Shown here: positions 1 to 24,950 of the stretch, one piece after another | Layout: each line of letters opens with the position of its first letter | How positions within the stretch are numbered: position 1 is the first letter of the stretch | Source: Synechococcus sp. RSCCF101 | GTDB lineage: Bacteria > Cyanobacteriota > Cyanobacteriia > PCC-6307 > Cyanobiaceae | Reading direction: 5' to 3' | Assembly: GCF_008807075.1 (NCBI RefSeq) | Contig: NZ_CP035632.1 | Location: 1,488,001 to 1,552,000, forward strand | DNA: 64,000 bases | Notes under the pieces: generated by a model | What the model was told of the DNA's origin: nothing | Seen by the model: only the letters and a program-made list of their open reading frames with translations | Databases searched by the model: none | Translations under genes and position numbers: made by a program

Positions 1-237
1 CAGTTCGTGGCGCTCGATGTGCGCCGTCACGGGCAGGAGCTCCAGATCGAGCAGCACGAGCTGGTCGGACCGTTGCCGCGACGCGGCGAACGGGGCGGCC
101 GGGCCCGCAACAAGCCGGCCCGCGCCCCTCAGCGGCACGATGCCGCCGGCGGCCAGCCGGAGCAGAACAGACCCGCCAGCCGGCCTCTGCGGGCGCTGCG
201 CTCGGCACTCTCCCGTCCAGGAAGCCAGCGCGGATGA
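1..237 (+). CDS. C-terminal end of an unidentified protein (5' truncated by window)
   Basis: The reading frame is open from base 1 and stops at TGA 235-237, overlapping the ATG of the next gene (ATGA, 234-237). The 78 visible residues begin with a short hydrophobic/charged segment (FVALDVRRHG) and then become very rich in Arg, Pro, Gly and Ala, as expected of a disordered, basic tail. The stop-start overlap suggests it is the upstream member of the operon that follows. I do not recognise the family. A C-terminal OB/S1-type nuclease tail is one possibility, but nothing visible proves it. Confidence 0.5.
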   Translation, partial: QFVALDVRRHGQELQIEQHELVGPLPRRGERGGRARNKPARAPQRHDAAGGQPEQNRPASRPLRALRSALSRPGSQRG

Positions 238-935
238 GCTTCTGGAGCGCCACCTGGGGCACCTGGTTCAACGCCGGTGCCGTGGTGCTGGGCGGCTGGC
301 TTGGCAGACGGTTCGGCCACCGGCTGCCCAGTGAACTCCAGGATCACTGGCGCCGCTGGCTGGGGGTCATCACCGTGCTGCTGGGCCTGCGCCTGGCCGC
401 CCCTCTGCTGGAGCTGGAGCTGGGACCGCTGCCCGCCCTCCTGCCCGCCCTGCTGCTGCTGCTGGCGGGCAGCGCCATCGGCCGGCGCCTCAACCGCAGC
501 CTGCGGCTGCCGGCCCGTCTGGGGGGCCTGCGGGAGGGCGTGCTGCCCGGTGCCTTCGTGCTCTTCTGCGCCGGTCCGATGACCCTGCTGGGCTGCCTGC
601 GCAACGGCGCCTTCGGCGATGCCGACCTGCTGCTGGTCAAGTCCAGCCTCGATGGAGTGGCGGCTGCCGTTCTGGCCGCCGGCACCGATGCGGCCCTGGC
701 CTGGGTGGCGGCACCGCTGCTGGCCCTCCAGCTTCCTCTCTCTCTGGCGGCGGCCCGTCTCAGCGCCCTGATCAGCGACCCGCAGAGCTCGCCGCTCGTG
801 CAGTTTCCCTCGGCCGTGGGTGGTCTGATGGTGCTCGCCCTGGCGCTGGAGCTGCTCGACTGCCCCGCCCCCTCCGTGAGCCAGGCCTGGCCGGGCCTGG
901 CCCTCGCGCCGGTGGTGGGCAGCTGGATCCGATGA
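234..935 (+). CDS. DUF554 family membrane protein (YdfK/YqgA-like)
   Basis: 233-residue polytopic membrane protein. It opens with a G-T-x-x-N-A-G-A-V-V-L-G-G-type glycine-rich helix followed by about six further hydrophobic segments. The pattern (short N-terminal helix, Arg-rich cytoplasmic turn 'GRRFGHRL', central 'F-C-x-G-P-M-T-L-L-G' helix and 'VKSSLDG' loop) matches the DUF554 family, which is widespread in bacteria and has no established substrate. Length is normal for the family. The ATG start overlaps the upstream stop, and the end overlaps the next gene by 4 bp (ATGA at 932-935), so it is translationally coupled on both sides. Confidence 0.85.
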   Translation: MSFWSATWGTWFNAGAVVLGGWLGRRFGHRLPSELQDHWRRWLGVITVLLGLRLAAPLLELELGPLPALLPALLLLLAGSAIGRRLNRSLRLPARLGGLREGVLPGAFVLFCAGPMTLLGCLRNGAFGDADLLLVKSSLDGVAAAVLAAGTDAALAWVAAPLLALQLPLSLAAARLSALISDPQSSPLVQFPSAVGGLMVLALALELLDCPAPSVSQAWPGLALAPVVGSWIR

Positions 936-4455: not shown

Positions 4456-5490
4456 GTGCTGCCTGCCCCGCCCATCCCCCTGCCGTGCCCCCTCAGTGCC
4501 GGCTGGCAGGTGATCTCCCGCACGGCCCTGCCAAGGCGCCACCCCGATGGCCGCCGCATGGGCGGCTTCTCCGCCCTGGCGATGGGAGCGGACTCCGGCA
4601 GCGGGGACCGGCCGCTGTGGCTGCTGAGCGACACGGACCAGCCGGAGCTGATTCCTCTGCTGGGGTGGATGGACACACCCCGCTACGGGCCGCGGCTGCG
4701 GCTGCGGGGGGCCGACGGTGCACTGCTGGCGCCGCGCTTCGACGGTGAGGGACTGGTCCGGATCGATGGCAGCCTCTGGATCGTGAGCGAGGGGCGGCGC
4801 CGGCTGGGACGGCCACCGGCGCTGCTGCGCTTCGATCTGGCCAGCGGCCGGTTCCGGGAGAAGCGGCCCCTGCCCCGGGCCTGGCGGCCCGCTCCGGATG
4901 CCGGCCTGCGCTCGAACCAGGGGCCCGAGAGCCTGGCCCGCTGGGGTGAGGAGCAGCTGCTGGTCGGCGCCGAGAGTCCGCTGAAACAGGACCGCGACGA
5001 CAGGGTGCGCCTGGCCCGGCTGCGCATGGAGGGATCCGGCATCGGCCCCGCACCACCAGCCCAGCCCCTGCGCCCGCTGGCGCTGCAGCCCCGCTCGGCC
5101 AACTGGGGCCTGACCGAACTCCTGCCCCTGCCGCGGCAGGACCGTCTGCTCGCCCTGGTGCGCGGCTACGACCCGCTGCAGGGCTGGTGGGCCCGGCTGC
5201 AGCTCTATCGCCTGCCCGGACCCGTGCAGGCGCCGGATCGGGCCGCACCGCTGCAGCCGTTGATGGGCTGGGACCTGCTGGCTGACCTGCTGCCGGCGGA
5301 CAACTGGGAGGGCATGACCCCGGGCCCGCCGCTTCCGGATGGGCGAGCGACACTGCTGCTGCTGAGCGATGACAATTTCTCCACCCGGCAACGGAGCTGG
5401 CTGGTGCGCCTCGCTCCCCGTCGCCGCCCGGGCTGCGGGGCGGTGGCGCCCGGTCACCTGGACTCCGAAGCCTCCCGGCCCCCGACATGA
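4456..5490 (+). CDS. Phytase-like-domain esterase family protein
   Basis: 344 residues from GTG 4456. The fold signature is that of the 'esterase-like activity of phytase' family: 'GGFSALAM' near the start, 'LWLLSD', 'LLRFDLASGRF', 'NQGPESLA', 'NWEGMTPG' near residues 284-291 and a final 'LLLLSDDNF' blade. Glu and Asp in 'PES', 'NWEGM' and 'SDDN' are the conserved acidic residues of this propeller family, which is linked to phosphoester hydrolysis. No convincing signal peptide is present from this start. TGA overlaps the ATG of the PhoX gene (ATGA 5487-5490), so the two are co-translated. Confidence 0.8.
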   Translation: MLPAPPIPLPCPLSAGWQVISRTALPRRHPDGRRMGGFSALAMGADSGSGDRPLWLLSDTDQPELIPLLGWMDTPRYGPRLRLRGADGALLAPRFDGEGLVRIDGSLWIVSEGRRRLGRPPALLRFDLASGRFREKRPLPRAWRPAPDAGLRSNQGPESLARWGEEQLLVGAESPLKQDRDDRVRLARLRMEGSGIGPAPPAQPLRPLALQPRSANWGLTELLPLPRQDRLLALVRGYDPLQGWWARLQLYRLPGPVQAPDRAAPLQPLMGWDLLADLLPADNWEGMTPGPPLPDGRATLLLLSDDNFSTRQRSWLVRLAPRRRPGCGAVAPGHLDSEASRPPT

Positions 5491-7685
5491 GCCTGACCCG
5501 CCGCTCGGTTCTCAGCCTGCTCGGCCTGAGCTGCGGGGTCGCGGGAGGGGCCGCCCTTGAAGGAGGGCCCCGGGCTGGAACCGCAGCGAGACGACCTGGG
5601 CACCCTTCGGGAGCTGCACTGCTATTTCAGCCGGTCGCTCTACCGCTGCCCGTGCAAGGCGATGGACTGGAGGCCGCAGCCCAGCGGCAGCGTCTTGCCA
5701 GCGTGCAGCTTGAGGATCGCCTGGTGCTGCCGGCGGGCTTCCGGGCCGATCTTCTGGCCGTGTGGGGTGAGCCCGTCGGCGATCCGGCGGTCGGGGCGCG
5801 CTTTGGATTCAACAACGATTACGTCGCCCTGGTGCCCGAGCCGACCGGACCACGCGCGGACGGAGCGGATGGTCCGGAACGCGCGCTCCTGGTGGTGAAC
5901 TTCGAGTACATCAGCCCGCTCCCCTGGCAACAGGGATTTGAAGCGGTGCTGGGTCGACCACTCCCCTACCAGCAGCTGGCGGACACCCTCAAGCCACAGC
6001 AGGGAGAGGCGGACTGCACCGCTCTGCCGGAAGGCCATCCGCTCCTCGCCCTCATCCGGGCGGTGAGCGATGAGGCGATGGCCGATCTGGGGGTGGGGGT
6101 CATCGCCCTGGAGCGCCATCGGGGCGCCTGGAGGCGGAGGACCTCGCCGCTGGAGCGGCGCATCGATGGGCTCGCCGGTCTGAGGGATCCCGCCCAGCGG
6201 CTGCGGGTGAGTGGTCCCGCCGCAGCTGTGTTCAACCTGCCGGAGCCCATGGGCTACAGCGATGGCCTGGGAGCATCCGTGATCGGCAGCTTCGCGAACT
6301 GCGCCGGCGGGGTGACCCCCTGGGGCACTGTGCTCAGTGCCGAGGAGAACGTGCAGGTCCAGATCAGCGAGGACGTTCATGCCGATGGCAGCGCCTCCCA
6401 CCCCTCCCGAAGGCCCTTTCTCTGCAGCGAGACGCGCCTGGCCGGCCTCGGCAACGTCTACGGCCTGGCGGGGAACAAATACGGCTGGATGGTGGAGGTC
6501 GATCCCGCCGACCCGACCCGCCCGGCCTGCAAGCACAGCTGGCTGGGGCGCTTCCGCCATGAAGCGGTGGCCGTGAGGGCCATCGCCGGCGAACACCTGC
6601 AGATCTACTCCGGCTGTGACCGGCGCGGCGGCCACCTCTACCGCTATGTGAGCGACGCGGTGGTGCAGGACCCGAGCGATCCCGCCAACTCGGCCCTGCT
6701 CGATCAGGGCGACCTCCAGGTGGCCCGCTTCGAGGGCGATGGCAGCGGCCGTTGGATTCCGCTGCGTCCCGAGACGCCCGTGGATCCGTTTCTACCGAGC
6801 CGCTTTCAGACGGCAGGCCTCAGCTGTCCGGTGGAGCTGCCCCATTCCGACCGTCGCCTCGCTGGCGCCGAGCTCTTCGACGATGACGCCGCCGTGGCCG
6901 CCTACCGCCGGCGGTTCCCGACCCTGGCCCACCTCTACCGGGGCGCAGCCGCCGCGCTGCAGGGAGCGATCCTGGTGGATGCCCACCTCGCGGCCAGCGC
7001 TGTTGGCGGAACGCCGACCGCCCGCCCGGAGGACACCGACCTCGATCCGGTGAGCGAGGACCTGCTGGTGGCCTTCACGTCCGGCCGTCCGAATGAGCGG
7101 GGAGGCGCGGATCCGGCCGTGTTCACCGGACCGGCCGGAGAAGCCGGCTGGCCCCATGGCTGGGTGATGCGCCTGCAGGATCAGGACGACGGGTTCCGCT
7201 GGCGTCTTGCGGTCACCGGCGGTGAGCCCTGGGCCGGCGGCCTGGGCTTTGCCAACCCGGACAATCTCGCCCTGGACCGGAACGGCAACCTCTGGATCGT
7301 GACGGACCGGTCCATCGGCGATCCTGCGGGGGAGATCTTCGGCAACAACAGCTGCTGGCTGGTCCCCCGTGGGAGCGGGTCCGAGGAAACGGCCTTCTGT
7401 TTCGCCACGGGGCCGATGGAGTGCGAACTCTGCGGCCTGGCGCTCGATCGGGATGAGCGCACCCTGTTCCTCGCGGTGCAACATCCCGGCGAACGGCATG
7501 GGCGGAGGATGGCCGGCCGCCAGCTGGAGCAGGAGCACCGGCTGGTGGATCGGGAGGGCCGGACCTTCCTGCAGCGGCGGCAGGTCCCGCTGGGGTCGTC
7601 CTGGCCATCGCCGGCGCCGGGCCAGCCCCCGAGGCCGGCTGTGGTGGCGATCCGGCGCGATGATGGCCGGCCTCTGCTGGCCTAA
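5487..7685 (+). CDS. PhoX-family alkaline phosphatase (DUF839)
   Basis: 732 residues. The N-terminus 'LTRRSVLSLLGLSCGVAGGAA' is a twin-arginine-type export signal, as in other PhoX enzymes. Family motifs include 'FGFNNDYVAL' and 'VNFEYI' near residues 105-140, 'NCAGGVTPWGT' followed by 'LSAEEN' near 270-290, 'YSGCDRRGG' near 375, and 'FANPDNLALDRNGNLWIVTD' near 590. PhoX enzymes release phosphate from organic phosphoesters outside the cytoplasm and use Ca2+ and Fe3+ cofactors. The gene is coupled to the phytase-like gene upstream, forming a likely phosphorus-scavenging pair. It overlaps the convergent iron permease by 4 bp. Confidence 0.88.
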   Translation: MSLTRRSVLSLLGLSCGVAGGAALEGGPRAGTAARRPGHPSGAALLFQPVALPLPVQGDGLEAAAQRQRLASVQLEDRLVLPAGFRADLLAVWGEPVGDPAVGARFGFNNDYVALVPEPTGPRADGADGPERALLVVNFEYISPLPWQQGFEAVLGRPLPYQQLADTLKPQQGEADCTALPEGHPLLALIRAVSDEAMADLGVGVIALERHRGAWRRRTSPLERRIDGLAGLRDPAQRLRVSGPAAAVFNLPEPMGYSDGLGASVIGSFANCAGGVTPWGTVLSAEENVQVQISEDVHADGSASHPSRRPFLCSETRLAGLGNVYGLAGNKYGWMVEVDPADPTRPACKHSWLGRFRHEAVAVRAIAGEHLQIYSGCDRRGGHLYRYVSDAVVQDPSDPANSALLDQGDLQVARFEGDGSGRWIPLRPETPVDPFLPSRFQTAGLSCPVELPHSDRRLAGAELFDDDAAVAAYRRRFPTLAHLYRGAAAALQGAILVDAHLAASAVGGTPTARPEDTDLDPVSEDLLVAFTSGRPNERGGADPAVFTGPAGEAGWPHGWVMRLQDQDDGFRWRLAVTGGEPWAGGLGFANPDNLALDRNGNLWIVTDRSIGDPAGEIFGNNSCWLVPRGSGSEETAFCFATGPMECELCGLALDRDERTLFLAVQHPGERHGRRMAGRQLEQEHRLVDREGRTFLQRRQVPLGSSWPSPAPGQPPRPAVVAIRRDDGRPLLA

Positions 7686-9247
7686 GCCTCCCGCTCGAGG
7701 CCGGGGATCAGGGCGATCGAGGCGGCAAGGCCCAGCAGGATGATCATCAGGCAGGGCAGCAGAGCACTGGCCAGCCGCTCGTCGCTGGCGTACTGGTACA
7801 CCCGCACCGCCAGGGTGTCGAAGCCGAAGGGCCGCAGCGCGAAGGTGAGCGGCAGCTCCTTCACGGTGTCGACGAACACGAGCAGACCACCCACCATCAG
7901 GGGCCCGCGCAGCAGCGGCAGGTGAACCCGGCGCAGCACGCCGCTCCAGCCCTGCCCGAGTGCGGTGGCCGCCTCATCGAGCTGCACGGGCATCCGCTCG
8001 AAGGCGGCGTCCAGCCCGCCCTTGGACACGGCCATGAACCGATCGGCGCAGCCCCAGACCAGCAGCAGCAGGGCCGGCAGGCCGATGGGCGCTCCCACCA
8101 GCAGCAGGGCCAGGGCCAGCACGGCGCCCGGCACCGCATAGCCCAGACCCGCCAGCTGGGTGAGGCCCAGCAGCACGGGATGGGATTGCCAGCGGGCGGT
8201 GAGTGCCAGCAGCAGAGCTCCACCGGCAGCGAGGACAGTGGCCAGGCCGCCGAGGGCCAGGCTGCGGCCACTCAGGGCGAGAAGCTCAGCAGCGTCACTG
8301 AGCACCAGCTGGTCCAGGCTCAGCGCGATCCAGATCAGCGGCACACCGAGGCTGATCAGGGGCGGCAGGCCGGCCAGAGCCTGGGCGGCGAGCGCCCGGC
8401 CGCCGCTCAGGGACCAGGCGGGGCCGGCCACCGCATCACTGCCCAGGTTCCAGCGCCGGCTGCGTCGCCTCAGCTGCCGCTCAACCGCCACCAGCAGGGC
8501 CACCACCAGCAGGGTGAGCAGGGCCAGAAGCACGGCGCCGGCGGGATCACCCTCCGCCTGCCAGCGCTGCAGGATGCCGGCGGACACGCTGGGGATGCCG
8601 AGCAGCTGCACCGCCCCGAGCTCGTTCACCACCTCCATTCCGATCAGGGCCACGCCCGCCCCGATGGCCGGCAGGGCCATGGGCAGGGCGACGCGCCGGA
8701 AGCTGCCCCAGGGGCCCACGCCAAGACTGCGGCAGGCCTCGAGCTGGCGGGCGCCACCCTGCTGGAAGGACTCGGTGCTCAGCAGGAACACGTACGGGTA
8801 GGTGCTGAGGCCCAGCACCAGCACGCCCCAGCCCATGCCGTACACCCGCCAATCGGCGCGGCTGGCCAGGTCCACCAGGGTGGCGGCCAGCAGGTAGCCG
8901 GGCGTGGCCAGGGGAACCAGCTGGGCAATGCGCAGCCAGCGGCGCCCGGGGAAGCGGCAGCGGGCGAGCAGCCAGCCGTTCGCCGTCCCCAGAGCAGCGC
9001 CCGCAGCAGCTGCTCCCAGCAGCAGGGTCAGGGTGCTGATCAGCTGTTCGAGGCCATCCGCGCCGAGGGAGAGAACCCCGAGATCGGCGCCGTCGAGAGC
9101 GGCCCAGCCCAGCCCCAGCAGAGGGCTCAGCGCCAGAAGGACCACCAGCAACGCCGAAACCACCAGGAGCTGACGGCTTCCGGAGACAGGAGGTCTGTGG
9201 GTGAGGGGCCGGAGCGCTGATGGACTCAGCAGCCGGACGAGCCGCAA
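7682..9247 (-). CDS. Fe3+-type ABC transporter permease (FbpB/FutB-like)
   Basis: 521 residues with about twelve hydrophobic segments arranged as two homologous BPD_transp_1 modules, the layout of ferric permeases such as FbpB, HitB and FutB. Each half carries the EAA-type loop: 'EACRSLGVGPWGSFRRVALP' near residue 185 and 'EAATALGQGWSGVLRRVHLP' near 445. The partners (periplasmic Fe-binding protein and ATPase) are not adjacent. The first start codon is TTG at 9247; no ATG precedes the first helix, so the exact start is uncertain. Its 3' end overlaps phoX by 4 bp. Confidence 0.88.
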   Translation of the reverse strand: MRLVRLLSPSALRPLTHRPPVSGSRQLLVVSALLVVLLALSPLLGLGWAALDGADLGVLSLGADGLEQLISTLTLLLGAAAAGAALGTANGWLLARCRFPGRRWLRIAQLVPLATPGYLLAATLVDLASRADWRVYGMGWGVLVLGLSTYPYVFLLSTESFQQGGARQLEACRSLGVGPWGSFRRVALPMALPAIGAGVALIGMEVVNELGAVQLLGIPSVSAGILQRWQAEGDPAGAVLLALLTLLVVALLVAVERQLRRRSRRWNLGSDAVAGPAWSLSGGRALAAQALAGLPPLISLGVPLIWIALSLDQLVLSDAAELLALSGRSLALGGLATVLAAGGALLLALTARWQSHPVLLGLTQLAGLGYAVPGAVLALALLLVGAPIGLPALLLLVWGCADRFMAVSKGGLDAAFERMPVQLDEAATALGQGWSGVLRRVHLPLLRGPLMVGGLLVFVDTVKELPLTFALRPFGFDTLAVRVYQYASDERLASALLPCLMIILLGLAASIALIPGLEREA

Positions 9248-9455
9248 CAGCGCTTGACCGACTGGCTGCCTCGGGTCGCCAAGAGCAGGGTCGCTGGGCG
9301 CGTCAACGAAACGTTGGAGGAACAGATGTCACTCGCTTCAGATGCCCGAAGGTAAGAAGCGACCGCACAGTGCGAACAGCACATTTGTCGCTTCAGCCCG
9401 TCACAAATGAAACAGGGTGCAGTGACGGGCGCCGCGTGGGCTGCGGCGACGTCCT
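9248..9455. other. Intergenic region upstream of the iron permease
   Basis: 208 bp without a credible gene, containing the 5' region of the minus-strand permease and the 3' flank of the small membrane protein gene. It is slightly less GC-rich than its surroundings. The word CGCTTCAG occurs twice (around 9330 and 9390). No confident promoter or metal-regulator operator was recognised. Confidence 0.4.
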
Positions 9456-9623
9456 TCAGACGCGGCGGGAGGGACCGGAACGGACGCGGACCGGAATCAG
9501 CTCGGGCTGGAGCTGACGCTGCATCAGGCCGCCGCCGGAATTGTCGTCGTCGGAATCGGCAATCAGCCAGCAGAGCAGGCCCACAAGACCCAGGACGGCT
9601 GCGGCGGAGAGGAGATCAACCAT
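9456..9623 (-). CDS. Small single-span membrane protein
   Basis: 55 residues from ATG 9623, preceded at good spacing by GAGGAA (minus-strand reading), which decides this start over upstream in-frame codons. One transmembrane helix (about residues 4-22, 'LLSAAAVLGLVGLLCWLIA') is followed by an acidic 'DSDDDN' cluster and a basic C-terminus. Small proteins of this shape are common in picocyanobacteria. I know no function. It sits alone between the ferric permease and the CobW-like GTPase, on the same strand as both. Confidence 0.6.
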   Translation of the reverse strand: MVDLLSAAAVLGLVGLLCWLIADSDDDNSGGGLMQRQLQPELIPVRVRSGPSRRV

Positions 9624-9736
9624 GGAGCCGGTTCCTCGTCGGGCCGTCACCCTAGTCGGGTTGTCCAGGCCCGGCGACACCCGGGCGACGGTTGTCCGCC
9701 CCGGGGGGATCAGGCAGCCGCTGCCACTCGCCGCGC

Positions 9737-10858
9737 TCAGGCGAAGCCCTTGCCGGCATCGGGGGCGACGCAGGCCTGGAGCTGACGCCGCAGACGGTCG
9801 TGATCGAGATCGCGGCCGATCAGCACCAGCTGGTTCTTGCGCTCACCGGGCCAGTCGCTGTCGTCGATCGAGAAGCGCTTGCCGGCCAGGTGGAACACAT
9901 GGCGCCGTTCGCTCTCGTTGAACCAGAGCACGCCCTTGGCCCGGAACACCCCCGCGGGCAGCTGGTTGTCGAGAAAATGCTGGAACTTGCGCAGGGCGAA
10001 GGGCCCGTCGCTGCGGAAGGAGAGCGAGGTGAAGCCTTCGATCGCCAGGTGATCCGGCGAGGCCTCATGGGAGTGGTCGTGATCGTGGTGGTGATCGTGC
10101 CCGTGGTGGTGATGGGCAGGACCATGGTCATGACCGTGATGGTCGTGATGGCCTCCATGGCCGTGCCCGTCGTGGTCGTGGTTGTGGTCGTGGCCACCAT
10201 TCGGCTCGGAGGCCGCGATCCGGTCGCTTTCGAACAGGCCCACGCTCAGCAGCAGGCCCAGCGGCACCTCCGCATTCACGGAGCGGAGGATGCGGGCGTC
10301 GGTCTTGATCGCCCGAAGCTCGGCCTCGATGGCCTGCAACCGCTCCTCGGGCACCAGATCGCACTTGTTGAGCATCAGGATGTCGCCGTAGATCACCTGG
10401 GAGCGGCCCACCTCACCGGCCAGCAGGCTGTCGTCGAAGTTCTCCGCATCGATCAGAGTCACGATCGAATCCAGCCGCGTGCTGTCGCGCAGCTCGCTGC
10501 CGAGAAAGGTCATGGCCACAGGCAGGGGATCGGCCAGGCCGGTGGTCTCCACCACCAGATAGTCGAGCTCGGCCTGCCGTTCCATCAGGCGGTCCACCGC
10601 ATCGAGCAGCTCGCCATTGATCGAGCAGCAGATGCAGCCGTTGCTGAGCTCGACCATGTCCTCGCTGGTGGCGACGATCAGGTCGTTGTCGATGCCGATC
10701 TCGCCGAATTCGTTGACCAGAACGGCGGTCTTGAGCCCCTGCTGGTTGGTGAGGATGTGGTTGAGCAGGGTGGTCTTGCCGGCCCCGAGGAAGCCGGTGA
10801 GGATCGTCACCGGCACGCCCTCGGTTCTGGGGAGTGTCGCGGTGTCGCTGGCGGTCAT
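9737..10858 (-). CDS. COG0523 (CobW/ZNG1-type) metallochaperone GTPase with His-rich linker
   Basis: 373 residues. N-terminal G domain: Walker A 'GFLGAGKTTLLN' near residues 21-32, 'NEFGEIGID' switch, the diagnostic metal motif C-I-C-C ('GCICCS') near 74-79, 'ETTGLADP' Walker B, and 'NKCD'. A linker of about 50 residues (roughly 215-270) is largely His, Asp and Gly and probably binds or stores zinc or another transition metal. The C-terminal CobW_C domain follows ('KGVLWF', 'LVLIGRDLD'). Family members insert metal into client proteins using GTP. The nearest genes do not name the client; Zn is the most common metal for this subgroup. Confidence 0.9.
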   Translation of the reverse strand: MTASDTATLPRTEGVPVTILTGFLGAGKTTLLNHILTNQQGLKTAVLVNEFGEIGIDNDLIVATSEDMVELSNGCICCSINGELLDAVDRLMERQAELDYLVVETTGLADPLPVAMTFLGSELRDSTRLDSIVTLIDAENFDDSLLAGEVGRSQVIYGDILMLNKCDLVPEERLQAIEAELRAIKTDARILRSVNAEVPLGLLLSVGLFESDRIAASEPNGGHDHNHDHDGHGHGGHHDHHGHDHGPAHHHHGHDHHHDHDHSHEASPDHLAIEGFTSLSFRSDGPFALRKFQHFLDNQLPAGVFRAKGVLWFNESERRHVFHLAGKRFSIDDSDWPGERKNQLVLIGRDLDHDRLRRQLQACVAPDAGKGFA

Positions 10859-10928
10859 CGAAGCGGAATGGGCATCGGTCCGGCGGCATCATGGCTGCAG
10901 TGCACTCCGCTCTGCAGGCGCACCGTCC

Positions 10929-11603
10929 GTGCCCCCATCCACCCCCTCCTCCCCTGCGGCCGAGAGCTGGCAGGACCGGCTGCGCTTCGACAGCAATGGT
11001 CTGCTTCCGGCCATCGCCCAGGACTGGCTCGATGGGGCGGTGCTGATGGTGGCCTGGATGAACCGGCTGGCGCTGGATCACACCCTGGCCAGCGGCGAGG
11101 TGCACTACTGGAGCCGCTCCCGTCAGGAGCTCTGGCACAAGGGCGCCACCAGCGGCCACATCCAGACCCTGCGGGGACTCCGCTACGACTGCGACGCCGA
11201 TGTGCTGCTGCTCACCGTCGAGCAACGCGGCAACGTGGCCTGTCACACCGGCGCCCGCAGCTGCTTCTACAGCGATGGGCTGCCGGGTGAGGCGGTGCTC
11301 GAGCCGCCGGCCGATGCCTGCACCGAGCTCTACCGGGTGATCGCGTCGCGCCGCTCATCCCCCCTGGAGGGGAGCTACACGAATCGGCTCCTCGATGGCG
11401 GCGACAACCGCATTCTCAAGAAGATCGGCGAGGAGAGCGCCGAGTTCGTCATGGCCTGCAAGGACGGGGAGGAGAAGGCCATCGCCTCGGAGGCCGCCGA
11501 TCTGCTCTTCCACATGCAGGTGGCCCTGGCTCACCACGGTGTCGACTGGCGGGCCGTGCAGGAGGAACTGGCGCGCCGTCGCGGTGCCCCCAGGCGGGAC
11601 TAG
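10929..11603 (+). CDS. hisIE: HisIE: phosphoribosyl-AMP cyclohydrolase / phosphoribosyl-ATP pyrophosphatase
   Basis: 224 residues from GTG 10929; the longer open frame upstream runs antisense to the CobW-like gene and is not coding. The HisI half (about residues 15-115) has 'YWSRSRQELWHKG', the metal site 'DCDAD' and 'ACHTGARSCF'. The HisE half (about 125-224) has 'KKIGEESAEFV' and 'EAADLLFHM'. Together they catalyse steps 2 and 3 of histidine synthesis, the usual cyanobacterial fusion. It lies back-to-back with the CobW-like gene (70-bp divergent spacer) and overlaps the convergent protease gene by 4 bp. Confidence 0.95.
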   Translation: MPPSTPSSPAAESWQDRLRFDSNGLLPAIAQDWLDGAVLMVAWMNRLALDHTLASGEVHYWSRSRQELWHKGATSGHIQTLRGLRYDCDADVLLLTVEQRGNVACHTGARSCFYSDGLPGEAVLEPPADACTELYRVIASRRSSPLEGSYTNRLLDGGDNRILKKIGEESAEFVMACKDGEEKAIASEAADLLFHMQVALAHHGVDWRAVQEELARRRGAPRRD

Positions 11604-20188: not shown

Positions 20189-23104
20189 TCAGGGCGCCGG
20201 GGACTCGGGTGGATGGCCTGCGCCCGCCGCGGCAGCCGGTGCCGGCAGCGGGCTCTCATTCGGCCAGCGCCGCAGAAAAGCCAGGAAATCGCCAGCGGAA
20301 AGCGGTCGGGCGAAGTAATAGCCCTGCCCCACCGTGCAGCCCCGCTCGCGCAGACACCGGGCCTGGGCCTCGTCTTCCACGCCCTCGGCCACGGTGGTGA
20401 GATCCATCGCCTTGGCCAGGGCCAGGATCGACTCCACGATCGCCAGGTCCTCGCGGCTGCTGGGCAGGGCCATCACGAACGACTGATCAATCTTGAGGCG
20501 ATCGATCGGCAGACGCTTGAGCTGGGCGAGAGAGGAATAGGCCGTGCCGAAATCATCGATCGACAGGTTGAGGCCCCGCTCCCGCAGGGCCCGCAGGGTG
20601 TGAACCTGCTCCTCGGGGTGGGTCATGATGAAGTCCTCGTTCACCTCCAGTTCCAGATGGGAGGTGGGGAAGCCTGTTTCGGCCACCACGCTGTCGATCA
20701 CCTCCAGCAGCTGGCCGGACTGGATCTGCGGGCCGGCGATGTTCACCGCCACCAGGCCGACATCGATGCCCTGATCCAGCCAGATCCGGCCCTGCCGGCA
20801 GGCCTCGCCGAGCACCCAGCGGCCGATCTCCTCGATCATGCCGTTCTGCTCGGCGATGTCGATGAAATCGCGGGTGCTGATGGAGGACGACAGCGCGCCG
20901 TGCCAGCGCACCAGCACCTCCACGCCGGCGATGCGGTTGCTGGCCAGATCGATCTGCGGTTGGTAGAGCAGCTCCAGCTCCTGCTGCTGGATCGACTGGC
21001 GAATGGCGTTGGAGCAGGCCAGGTGGCGGGCCGAGTGCTCGGCCATCTCGCGGGAGAAGAAGCGATGGGCATTGCCACCGCTCTCCTTGGCCTTGTACAT
21101 GGCCGCATCGGCGTGCTGCAGCAGCACCTCGGACGTGGTGCCGTCGTCGGGATAGAGGCTGACCCCGATGGAGCTGGTGAGAAAGAGCTGGTGGCCATCC
21201 ACCTCCACCGGGTCGCGGTAGAGGGAGAGGATCTTCTTCACCACGATCTGCACGGCATCACTATCGGGAATCGACTCGAGCACGGCAACGAACTCATCAC
21301 CGCCGAAGTGAGCCAGGGTGTCGTTGGCGCGGAACAGGGCCTTCATGCGATCGGACACAGCCAGCAGCACGATGTCACCCACCTCGTGACCGAGGCTGTC
21401 GTTGATGCTCTTGAAATGATCGAGGTCCATGAACATCACCGCCACCTTGCGGCCCTCCCGATCGGCCCGTTTGAGGCTCTCCTCCAGCCGCTTCTTCAGC
21501 ATCAGCCGGTTCGGCAGACGCGTGAGCGGATGGGTGTGGGCCATGTCGTAGAGCATGGCCTCGCTCTGCTTGAGGCTGGAGATGTCGGTGAACACCGCCA
21601 CATAGCCGGTTTTTGTGTTCGCGCTGTCGCGCACCACGTTGATGGTCAGCAATTCGGCGAAGAGAGAGCCGTCCTTGCGGCGGTTCCAGATCTCGCCCTG
21701 CCACTGGTCGTGGCGTTGGAGATCGTTCCACATCTGGCCGTAAAACACATCATCGTGCCGATCCGACTTCAGGAAGCTGGGCTTCTGACCCAGCGCTTCG
21801 GCCTCCGAATACCCCGTGATCCGGCAGAACGACTGGTTGACCTTGATGATGGCATTGCTCGCATCGGTGATCATCACGCCGTCGGCCGTGTGCTCGAAGG
21901 CCACAGCTGAGATCTTCAGGTCCTTGGCCGTCTCGGCCAGCAACGCCATGGTGCGCTTCCGCTGGACGGCGCGCCAGATCTGGTTGAACAGCAGCTGCAT
22001 GGTCTCCACGTCCGACTGCTTGTAGCCCGAGGGCTTGTTGCCCACTCCCGCGATCATCACCACGCGTCCGTCTTCGATCACAGGAACCGTGAGGAAGCGA
22101 GCCAGGTGGGCGTGGCCCTCCGGTAATCCCCTGCGATGGCTGGCTTTGGCGTAGTCGTTCACCACCACAGGCCGCTTCTGCCGGATCGCATCGGCCCAGA
22201 TGCCGGCTTCCGCCACGGGATAGTGGGCGTCATGCACCGCGTGGCAATAGCCCGACAGCGTGCGGCGAGACCAGGTGATCAGCTCGATCGAGTGGCCGTC
22301 TTCATTGACGAAATGCAGGAAGCCGATGGTGCTGCCGGTGAGGGATTCGGCCACCTCGAGGCCGTCCTGGAGAAAATCCTGCTCGTGCTCCCCTTCCGAA
22401 AGCCTGGGAATCGTGAGCAGCGCCTGAGTGCGGGCGCTGTCGAGACGCAGCAGCATCAGGCTGCGCAGCAACAGCCACAGCCAGACGCTCAGCAGAGCGA
22501 AGAAGAAAACGATGAACAGCGTGGTGCGTTGTTCAACCCTCCGTTGCACCCGCTTGGAATCAGCCAGGAAGGTGGCAGCTTGCTGCTCGGCAAACTCCTG
22601 AACGTCGTTCATTTCCAGGAGCAAGGAGTTGATGTACTCTCTGCCCTTTCCCTTCGTGAGCGCCGCCGCCGCCTCCCGCTTGCCAGCGAGGCTGAGGGCA
22701 ATCACCTCCTGACGAATCGGTCGCCAGTCAGCGAACGCCTTCCTCAGGCTGGTGATCTTGTCGAGGTCGCCGAGAAAGCGCTCCTCGATCACATCAGACA
22801 GACCGAAGACTCGGCCTTCAAGCTCATAAACCGAGTTCGCACGGTCACGGATGGCCGCGTCATTCTCGGCCAGCACCACATCCTTCATGTCGCGGTGCAT
22901 CTCCACGATCGCCGCCCGAATCCCCCAGACACTGCGACTCACCGTGAACAGGTGGCGGTGGAGGTTCTCCGTCAGCTGGGCCAGCTGCCGCTGCGACTGG
23001 ATCGTGATCCCGAGCGACACGAGCATGGCTCCGGACACCACGGCGAGGCCCGTCAGCAGGGGATGATCGCGGAGCGCGGTCCGCAGCCGCCTAGCCAGCG
23101 CCAT
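20189..23104 (-). CDS. Membrane GAF-PAS-GGDEF-EAL cyclic-di-GMP turnover protein
   Basis: 971 residues from ATG 23104. Order: TM helix (about 16-36), extracytoplasmic helical sensor (about 37-190), TM helix ('LFIVFFFALLSVWLWLLLRS'), GAF (about 230-400), PAS (about 405-530), GGDEF (about 545-705) and EAL (about 720-965). The cyclase site is intact ('AHFGGDEF'), with an RxxD product-inhibition site (R-A-N-D) five residues upstream. The EAL signature reads E-V-L, but the metal/catalytic residues elsewhere ('LELEVNE', 'DDFGTAYSSL', 'LKIDQSF', 'VAEGVE') are kept, so both activities are plausible. Its start overlaps the upstream ZIP/CNBD gene by 14 bp, implying co-expression. Confidence 0.93.
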   Translation of the reverse strand: MALARRLRTALRDHPLLTGLAVVSGAMLVSLGITIQSQRQLAQLTENLHRHLFTVSRSVWGIRAAIVEMHRDMKDVVLAENDAAIRDRANSVYELEGRVFGLSDVIEERFLGDLDKITSLRKAFADWRPIRQEVIALSLAGKREAAAALTKGKGREYINSLLLEMNDVQEFAEQQAATFLADSKRVQRRVEQRTTLFIVFFFALLSVWLWLLLRSLMLLRLDSARTQALLTIPRLSEGEHEQDFLQDGLEVAESLTGSTIGFLHFVNEDGHSIELITWSRRTLSGYCHAVHDAHYPVAEAGIWADAIRQKRPVVVNDYAKASHRRGLPEGHAHLARFLTVPVIEDGRVVMIAGVGNKPSGYKQSDVETMQLLFNQIWRAVQRKRTMALLAETAKDLKISAVAFEHTADGVMITDASNAIIKVNQSFCRITGYSEAEALGQKPSFLKSDRHDDVFYGQMWNDLQRHDQWQGEIWNRRKDGSLFAELLTINVVRDSANTKTGYVAVFTDISSLKQSEAMLYDMAHTHPLTRLPNRLMLKKRLEESLKRADREGRKVAVMFMDLDHFKSINDSLGHEVGDIVLLAVSDRMKALFRANDTLAHFGGDEFVAVLESIPDSDAVQIVVKKILSLYRDPVEVDGHQLFLTSSIGVSLYPDDGTTSEVLLQHADAAMYKAKESGGNAHRFFSREMAEHSARHLACSNAIRQSIQQQELELLYQPQIDLASNRIAGVEVLVRWHGALSSSISTRDFIDIAEQNGMIEEIGRWVLGEACRQGRIWLDQGIDVGLVAVNIAGPQIQSGQLLEVIDSVVAETGFPTSHLELEVNEDFIMTHPEEQVHTLRALRERGLNLSIDDFGTAYSSLAQLKRLPIDRLKIDQSFVMALPSSREDLAIVESILALAKAMDLTTVAEGVEDEAQARCLRERGCTVGQGYYFARPLSAGDFLAFLRRWPNESPLPAPAAAAGAGHPPESPAP

Positions 23105-24950
23105 GGGGGGATGCGTTGAGGCCGTTGACGTAGATGATCGCCAGAAAACCGAGAATGGTGGACAGACCCACCACCGAGCCACCCTTGGCGTAGGACTCGG
23201 GCAGCATCGTTTCGGAGATCACCGTGAGCATGGCGCCGGCCGCCATGGCACCGATCAGCGACACCCAGCGGTCCGACACGCCCTGAAACACCGCGGCGCC
23301 CAGAGCGGCCAGCACCCCGGTGAGCAGGGCCAGGCCGGCCCACATGCCCAGGATCATGAAGGGGGGGAATCCCTGCTGTCGCATGCCGTGGGAGCTGGAG
23401 AGGGCCTCCGGGTAGTTGGCGATGAACAGCCCCAGCAGCAGCGAGGAGCTCAGGGGTGCGGCGATCACATGGGCGCCGATGGTGAGGGCTTCGGGGATGC
23501 CGTCCATCAGCAGGCCGATCCAGATGGCCAGCGGCGCCGAGCCGCGGCTGTTCACCTCATCCAGCACCACGCTGGCCGAGGGCAGCAGGTGGCCGCGGTG
23601 CATCTCGTGCAGGGCCCGGTTCACCCAGCGCTCGCTCAGATCGACCGTGAACCCCTGCTTGCCCTGCAGATAGGTGCGGACCCGCTCATCGCTGAGGAAC
23701 AGACGCACGGCCTCATCCAGAGCGGCACTGCGTTCCAGCAGATGGTCGAAGTCCTCCCGCCGCAGCGCCCAGGCGGACCCGGTGGTGCGGGCCACCGCGG
23801 TGACGGTGTGGTCCACGCCGGTGACGAAGGACAGCTCCCCCAGGGCCTCGCCGCCCCGGATCAGGCGCGGTCGCCGCCGGGGCTGACGGGGATCGAGCAG
23901 CTCCACCTCTCCGCGCTCCAGCAGGAACAGCCGCTCGGCCTCCTCACCGGCCTGGAAGAAGGCGTGCCCGTCATCGAAGCGGCCGTAGACCAGACGATCC
24001 GCCACCTGCTCGAGGTCGTCCTCCGGCAGGTTGGCGAACACCGGGAACTTGCCGATGTGGCGGGCCTGCGCCTGGAAGGCGGCGATGTGGCGATCAATGG
24101 TCACCGCATCGGGCAGGTGGCGCGTGGCCATCAGCGCCTGCCGGGCTGCGGCCACCCAGGCCTCCGCCTGCTGCCGCGGCAGCTGTTCCCGCTCCTCCAG
24201 GTAGCTGAGCAGCTCCGGATGGTGCAGGCGGGCGGCGATGTGGCGGCTGAAGCTGAGCGACTCCTGCAGCAGCCGCTCGAAGTCGGGCCGGCTGAGGATG
24301 GCGAGCTGGGCCTCGGAGGCACACACGGCCGCCATCCGGTGCGGTGTGCCGGTGAGAAACGCCAGCCGGCCCACGCTGCCAAAGGGGCCGACGCTGGCGT
24401 ACAGGCCGTCATCCCGGCCCGGATCGAGCAGATGCACCGCTCCCTCCAGCACCAGGTAGAGGCTTTCGCCCGGGTCGTTGCTGCGGAAGAGGGTGTGGCG
24501 TTCGCTGTAGGCGGCCACCTGAACGCAGGCCGCCAGGTCCTGCAGATCGCTGATCGGCAGGCCGCGGAACAGATCCACCGCCGCCAGCTGCCGCACCCGG
24601 CGCCGGCGCAGGCGGGCGCTCTCGGCGCTGAGGTGGGAGAGCATGGTGGCGGGCTTGCGCAGGAAGCCGCCGCTGCCATTCACCAGCGCGTTCACGAGCG
24701 TGTAGAAAAGGCTGCCGGCCACGCTTCCCACCCCCAGCTCGAGCAGGTGCCCCTTGGCCTGGGCGCTGCCCACCAGATCGATCACGAGGGCCGAGAGCAG
24801 GGCCCCGGCGCCGAAGGCGATGAGCACCGCGCTCGTGCGGTTGCGGGGCCGCCAGAGCAGGCCGGTGGCCGCGCCGAGCGGCATCGAACAGGCCGACACC
24901 ACACCGGCCAGAAAGGGCTGACTCGCGATCTGGGCCAGGACTGCCGCCAT
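23091..24950 (-). CDS. ZIP-fold membrane protein with two inserted cyclic-nucleotide-binding-type domains
   Basis: 619 residues. Three N-terminal membrane helices (about 10-98) and about five C-terminal ones (about 475-615) together resemble a split ZIP metal transporter. The TM4 and TM5 signatures are altered: 'DGIPEALTIGAHV' and 'ANYPEALSSS' in place of the usual His-containing HNxPEG / HExPEG. The TM3-TM4 loop is replaced by about 370 residues containing two cNMP-type beta-roll domains (about 120-260, 'GRLAFLTGTPHRMA'; about 300-430, 'GELSFVTGVDHTVTA'). The second lacks the canonical phosphate-cassette Arg. Transport of a metal gated by a nucleotide or by protein contacts is an inference. 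It overlaps the GGDEF/EAL gene. Confidence 0.82.
   Translation of the reverse strand: MAAVLAQIASQPFLAGVVSACSMPLGAATGLLWRPRNRTSAVLIAFGAGALLSALVIDLVGSAQAKGHLLELGVGSVAGSLFYTLVNALVNGSGGFLRKPATMLSHLSAESARLRRRRVRQLAAVDLFRGLPISDLQDLAACVQVAAYSERHTLFRSNDPGESLYLVLEGAVHLLDPGRDDGLYASVGPFGSVGRLAFLTGTPHRMAAVCASEAQLAILSRPDFERLLQESLSFSRHIAARLHHPELLSYLEEREQLPRQQAEAWVAAARQALMATRHLPDAVTIDRHIAAFQAQARHIGKFPVFANLPEDDLEQVADRLVYGRFDDGHAFFQAGEEAERLFLLERGEVELLDPRQPRRRPRLIRGGEALGELSFVTGVDHTVTAVARTTGSAWALRREDFDHLLERSAALDEAVRLFLSDERVRTYLQGKQGFTVDLSERWVNRALHEMHRGHLLPSASVVLDEVNSRGSAPLAIWIGLLMDGIPEALTIGAHVIAAPLSSSLLLGLFIANYPEALSSSHGMRQQGFPPFMILGMWAGLALLTGVLAALGAAVFQGVSDRWVSLIGAMAAGAMLTVISETMLPESYAKGGSVVGLSTILGFLAIIYVNGLNASPHGAG

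Follow-up and report, generated by a model that had tools for sequence, protein, structure and literature searches.

A ZIP-type membrane protein with two cyclic-nucleotide-binding-type domains in its TM3-TM4 loop in Synechococcus sp. RSCCF101

ZIP transporters and cyclic-nucleotide-binding domains (CNBDs) are each well known; the fusion of both is the new point of this report. The closest described membrane protein is BbZIP from Bordetella bronchiseptica, an elevator-type transporter in which TM4-TM6 carry the metal (PMC9278863). Histidines in its TM3-TM4 loop sense cytosolic zinc and block the transporter's own uptake (PMC10256678). On the side of the CNBD, the phosphate-binding cassette of PKA holds the cyclic nucleotide by a Glu and an Arg, of which the Arg of RI-alpha neutralises the cyclic phosphate; PKA of trypanosomatids binds nucleosides, a change of ligand after loss of the cassette Arg (PMC10959531). 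The possibility that the architecture described here is already a well-characterised family was checked by a literature search covering few subscription journals, which returned no description of a ZIP-CNBD fusion and no functional description of ZIP-like relatives with a single CNBD.

The window, meaning the whole stretch of DNA analysed, is 64,000 nucleotides of the Synechococcus sp. RSCCF101 genome. Features of the locus are collected in Table 1. GC content by codon position in the ZIP-CNBD gene is 0.74/0.47/0.90 on the minus strand, and full-length homologues with 33-52% identity occur in several phyla; these two observations rule out a chance ORF or an antisense shadow. A 631-aa ORF on the plus strand is itself the antisense shadow of this gene.

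Table 1. Features of the ZIP-CNBD locus, in window coordinates.
Feature	Position	Strand	Remarks
ZIP transporter core with tandem CNBD insertion, whole gene	23091..24950	minus	619 aa, ATG start at 24950
N-terminal half of ZIP core, TM1-TM3 (residues 1-99)	24654..24950	minus	ends in linker GGFLRKP
CNBD1 (residues 100-275), degenerate cNMP-binding fold	24126..24653	minus	
CNBD2 (residues 283-452), degenerate cNMP-binding fold	23595..24104	minus	
C-terminal half of ZIP core, TM4-TM8 (residues 468-613)	23112..23549	minus	
D58 in TM2, aligned to BbZIP Ser106	24777..24779	minus	Asp/Glu in 54/55 double forms
Putative TM4 metal ligands D483, E487 (BbZIP His177, Glu181)	23490..23504	minus	55/55 double forms
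TM5 residues A511, N512, E515 (BbZIP Gln207, Asp208, Glu211)	23406..23420	minus	N and E 55/55
Phosphate-binding cassette of CNBD1 (residues 193-209)	24324..24374	minus	Glu position R195, Arg position H204
Phosphate-binding cassette of CNBD2 (residues 370-387)	23790..23843	minus	E372 kept, Arg position H381
4HB_MCP-GAF-PAS-GGDEF-EAL gene (c-di-GMP turnover)	20189..23107	minus	downstream, overlaps ZIP stop by 17 bp

The sequence-only reading of this locus had described three membrane helices, about 370 residues holding two beta-roll CNBDs, and then about five helices with 'PEA' turns. The same order appears in an AlphaFold2 model built from 55 aligned sequences (mean pLDDT 89.5), with helices at residues 2-32, 37-66 and 69-92, beta-roll domains at about 104-275 and 283-452, and further helices at 469-613 after both; the turns are IPEA at 485-488 and YPEA at 513-516. 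Of the two Pfam families expected from that reading, cNMP_binding (PF00027) matched twice, with an E-value of 1.1e-27, whereas Zip (PF02535) scored 10.5 bits (E 0.36) against a gathering cut-off of 35.1. Even so, below the cut-off, this protein is the sole sequence that the Zip profile picks up in the genome.

The ZIP fold was assigned despite the sub-threshold score because the model superposes on BbZIP across the insertion. The eight best matches in structural comparison are all BbZIP, with Z from 23.6 to 24.8 and both halves of the core covered; the best, 7z6n, aligns 235 residues at 2.7 A over the model range 1..613. A profile of the C-terminal half, searched against the PDB, matched BbZIP alone (E 6e-9). 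The fold of the termini had been singled out beforehand as the point on which the ZIP assignment would turn, and these results rule out a non-ZIP fold there. Next after BbZIP in the structural comparison come the CNBDs of plant potassium channels, SLC9C1, PKA/PKG and CRP-type proteins, with Z of 16-18 for the CNBD fold. Among relatives, L017, L027 and L011 all exceed the Pfam Zip gathering score, L017 with 39.5 against 35.1 bits. We place the insertion in the TM3-TM4 loop because the Zip profile breaks off at positions 99-102 before the insert in double-CNBD relatives (L017, L045) and resumes after it, covering positions 171-322 in L042. A single-CNBD relative, modelled with lower confidence (pLDDT 82.5), has its helices in the same order on either side of its one CNBD. 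A ZIP fold for the window protein is thus supported by the predicted structure, and the gene is confirmed to encode a ZIP-type protein with two CNBD-type domains inside the TM3-TM4 loop.

Residue equivalences to BbZIP were taken from the alignment of the C-terminal-half profile, with the numbering checked against His177, and from a separate alignment for TM2. At the M1 site, H177 corresponds to D483, E181 to E487, Q207 to A511 and E211 to E515, with Ser at the A511 position in 46 of 55 double forms. At M2, a site not universal among ZIPs, N178 corresponds to G484, D208 to N512 and E240 to T544; elsewhere, H275 corresponds to E580 and the release residue E276 to T581. The residues D483, E487, N512 and E515 are invariant across 55 double and 36 single forms, and the D..E and N..E pattern is also found in relatives free of any CNBD. 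Because of these equivalences and this invariance, M1 reads as a kept, all-carboxylate site and M2 as dismantled. The replacement of the TM4/TM5 metal-binding positions by Asp and Ala/Asn, noted from the sequence alone, thus holds, as D483 for His177 and A511/N512 for Gln207/Asp208. Judged by the alignments, the Asp and Asn substitutions are a hallmark of the entire clade, with its CNBD-free members, and are not peculiar to the window protein. The metal preference has perhaps changed, toward harder ions than zinc. Loss of M2 together with the change from E276 to T581 could mean that transport is altered or lost.

In known CNBDs the cassette Glu contacts ribose. Among single-CNBD relatives (n=36) this Glu is kept in 34 and the Arg in 30. 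In the double forms (n=55), by contrast, CNBD1 has the Glu in none, the Arg in 3 and His at the Arg position in 33, while CNBD2 has the Glu in 16, the Arg in none and His at the Arg position in 49. The TG turn of the cassette is retained in double forms, and H381, T382/S and G371 are strongly kept in CNBD2. Cassette residues of CNBD1 are highly variable, which suits relaxed constraint as well as it suits a new ligand. The suspicion that the CNBDs might be degenerate is borne out, family-wide among the doubles. Loss of the Arg had been reported for the second domain, correctly so (H381), but had been wrongly confined to it, as the first domain also lacks the Arg (H204), and the Glu as well. Modulation by nucleotides, proposed in the sequence-only reading, is still an inference. 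Because the degeneracy is family-wide, it argues against ordinary cAMP or cGMP gating of the double form and in favour of it in single-CNBD relatives; going by the cassettes, cyclic-nucleotide gating in the usual way is unlikely there and possible in single-CNBD relatives.

Our preferred reading, which we hold to be fairly probable, is that the protein is a ZIP divalent-metal transporter whose cytosolic TM3-TM4 loop is replaced by a tandem CNBD module that does not give the usual response to cyclic nucleotides. Metal would be moved by the ZIP elevator mechanism, with TM4-TM6 carrying it as in BbZIP. The CNBD pair would replace the histidine-loop zinc sensor of other ZIPs and hold the transport domain in check allosterically, as a brake or clamp. 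By its anatomy the pair bridges scaffold and transport domain, joining TM3 in the former to TM4 in the latter, and CNBD2 leads straight into TM4-TM6; a change in the pair could thus directly hold back the elevator or set it free. Since the contacts to the cyclic phosphate have been lost, we propose that the pair answers another small ligand or serves as a ligand-free module for coupling or dimerisation, like the CNBH domain of CNNM.

A purely structural or coupling role for the pair, by dimerisation, membrane tethering or partner binding as in the CNBH domains of CNNM or EAG and with no ligand at all, is possible if rather doubtful. Both binding sites are degenerate, a CNNM2 CNBH profile finds weak matches in 6 of 16 cyanobacterial single forms, and in CNNM the CNBH domain is reported to bring about dimerisation and to be needed for Mg2+ efflux (a study cited in PMC8242095). 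Retention of H381, T382/S and G371 nevertheless suggests a conserved pocket in CNBD2 and not drift.

That the double form is still gated by cAMP or cGMP, with His replacing Arg as the phosphate contact, appears unlikely. The genome encodes three class III cyclases and other CNBD proteins, His is strongly kept at the Arg position (H381 in 49/55, H204 in 33/55) and is already present there in 5 of 20 single forms, and the cassette TG turn survives. Set against this, the cassette Glu is found in 0/55 and 16/55 of the two domains, and in PKA RI-alpha it is the Arg that neutralises the cyclic phosphate (PMC10959531). Elsewhere in the genome, at about 2415000-2431000 of contig C1 (L004, L149, L150), a CNBD-containing MscS-type channel lies within about 3-15 kb of the three class III cyclases, likely forming a cyclic-nucleotide signalling cluster. 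A glutaminase-STAS-CNBD gene is held by two identical 3,495-bp copies near both ends of the contig (12105-15599 and 2976963-2980457; L002, L003), probably an unmerged end overlap of a circular assembly.

Relatives of the ZIP-CNBD protein form a series from CNBD-free through single-CNBD (about 430 aa) to double-CNBD proteins. The double form was found in 3 of 386 genomes in a sample of the window's phylum and in 8 of 390 in a sample of its class, where about 50 genomes have the single form and two (G689, G748) have both. Among 200 genomes of the window's own order, this genome alone has the double form; others have CNBD-free relatives. Double forms occur in Cyanobacteriota, Pseudomonadota, Planctomycetota, Verrucomicrobiota, Chlorobiota, Nitrospirota and Bacillota (named carriers being Cyanobacteriota, Gamma- and Alphaproteobacteria, Scalindua, Verrucomicrobiales, Pelodictyon, Magnetocorallium and Desulfosporosinus), although many of these records are MAGs whose individual taxon assignments may be wrong. 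The survey thus shows the domain order recurring in many bacterial phyla. Single forms are found in Cyanobacteriota and several other phyla. No relatives were found on plasmids or on viral contigs. The Synechocystis protein slr0593, we presume, may be a single-CNBD member. It is annotated as 'cAMP binding membrane protein' and is lower under iron deprivation (PMC3516471).

When a tree is built from the membrane core, the double forms fall within the non-cyanobacterial singles, and the cyanobacterial singles make a clade of their own; in a tree of the CNBDs, the CNBD2 copies form one clade (support 98) and the CNBD1 copies form one clade except for one single-form row, L144, both being quick trees with many weak branches. 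Because the CNBD1 and CNBD2 copies each form a clade of their own, one duplication explains the pair: the double form arose once, by duplication of one CNBD in a single-CNBD lineage. The linker GGFLR(K/H)P after TM3 is common to all CNBD-bearing relatives and therefore suggests one original CNBD insertion for all of them. The exceptional row is a single-CNBD member from Thiocystis minor (L144, 224-1432) that falls with the doubles by its core as well as by its CNBD, apparently through secondary loss of one CNBD or because the gene is damaged. In Pseudanabaena ULC068, a 128-aa ORF directly after a full double-form gene (L081, 9824-10210; also L043) repeats the C-terminal ZIP half with 66% identity to the window protein, and is a partial tandem duplication or a broken paralogue.

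A first clustering of neighbouring genes yielded generic ABC ATPases and antisense ORFs and was discarded; for pst, phn and ppk, genes confirmed by HMM were retained, all tested genes being confirmed by their family models. In Xenococcus PCC 7305 the genes run pstS-pstC-pstA-pstB and then, after a gap of 64 bp, the ZIP gene. A pstS gene is divergent from and adjacent to the double form in Pseudanabaena ULC068, Xenococcus MO_188.B8 and a gammaproteobacterial MAG. The double-form gene lies among pst genes in Thiocapsa and Thiohalocapsa, and in Thiomicrospira cyclica pst lies about 3-7 kb from a truncated double form. Genes phnCD adjoin the double form in a Verrucomicrobiales MAG, and ppk1 is two genes from it in a Xenococcaceae MAG. 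By locus, pst occurs at L078, L080, L081, L087, L099, L107 and the truncated L119, phnCD at L121 and ppk1 at L101.

From the density of pstC loci measured in 13 genomes, a pst cluster was expected at 0.35 double loci, and six full-length double forms have one (P about 2e-6). With all phosphorus genes counted, about 9 of 57 double loci have one nearby and none of the 38 single-form loci does (Fisher p 0.008). Independence is overstated by these counts, as some linked loci belong to sister species and phosphorus genes were picked out as a group once the neighbours were known. No pst genes were found near the 38 single-form loci. The window locus has no pst neighbour, pstC being about 0.49 Mb away. 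The regions upstream of cyanobacterial double forms show no enrichment of Pho boxes; L070 has one clear triple TTAA box, of a type verified in Synechocystis (PMC11126600). A PhoX-type alkaline phosphatase gene (PF05787, E 1e-83) at 5487-7685 on the plus strand of the window, about 15 kb from the ZIP gene and not adjacent to it, is thematically close to the phosphorus link. By eye, a transaldolase-like gene directly follows the double-form gene in Adonisia and Leptolyngbya PCC 7375 (L086, L148, around 6566-11358), acetate kinase precedes it in Adonisia, and in Crocosphaera MAGs it comes after enolase.

The GGDEF-EAL gene is a possible operon partner of the ZIP-CNBD gene in the window; as a conserved c-di-GMP partner it was rejected, none occurring beside relatives. 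The view of the protein as a metal sensor or transceptor, whose site binds metal without moving it and whose CNBDs signal outward, perhaps to this gene, can draw on the overlap of the two genes, the lost M2 site and T581 in place of E276, but is very unlikely in the face of invariant acidic M1 ligands, CNBD-free members that carry the same altered site as bare ZIP cores, and the lack of any c-di-GMP gene recurring beside relatives.

Returning to an allosterically controlled ZIP transporter, neighbourhoods in other genomes tentatively suggest that it could be of use under phosphate shortage, perhaps as a source of metal for phosphatases or polyphosphate. The fuller proposal, a widespread allosteric ZIP class whose CNBD pair has switched to a ligand reporting phosphorus or energy status and so couples divalent-metal uptake directly to phosphate, is put forward as speculative and on balance rather unlikely. 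If the phosphorus link is true, it would make metal-phosphorus co-limitation in aquatic bacteria accessible at the molecular level. More generally, the predicted structure suggests that the TM3-TM4 loop, known in ZIPs for regulation by the metal itself, can host a complete ligand-sensing module. The natural ladder of no CNBD, one intact CNBD and two altered CNBDs lends itself to testing the origin of second-messenger control of metal uptake, and lets a change of CNBD ligand be tested.

Compared with BbZIP (PDB 5TSA/7Z6N/8GHT), the window protein has the same eight-helix core, the same TM4/TM5 metal-site positions and equivalents of Glu181 and Glu211, and regulation of BbZIP acts through the same TM3-TM4 loop (PMC10256678). 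It differs in having Asp for H177, in the loss of the M2 ligands and E276, and in carrying about 370 residues of CNBDs where BbZIP has a short His-containing loop. Single-CNBD relatives share with the double form the core, the insertion point, the GGFLR(K/H)P linker and the CNBD fold, but have one CNBD, with Glu and Arg mostly intact (34/36 and 30/36), and 0/38 of their loci are near pst. PKA regulatory subunits have a tandem CNBD pair as the double form does, but are soluble kinase regulators. Trypanosomatid PKA, which is cAMP-independent, likewise has its cassette Arg replaced and its ligand switched to nucleosides (PMC10959531), yet its ribose-binding Glu is absent from the double form, which has Ala or Ser at that position. 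The CNNM/CorB Mg2+ transporters, with a CNBH domain, and the SLC9C1 exchangers, with a CNBD, are, like the double form, ion transporters with a cytosolic domain of CNBD fold; their membrane folds are unrelated, and they carry one copy as a separate C-terminal cytosolic domain, not in a transmembrane loop.
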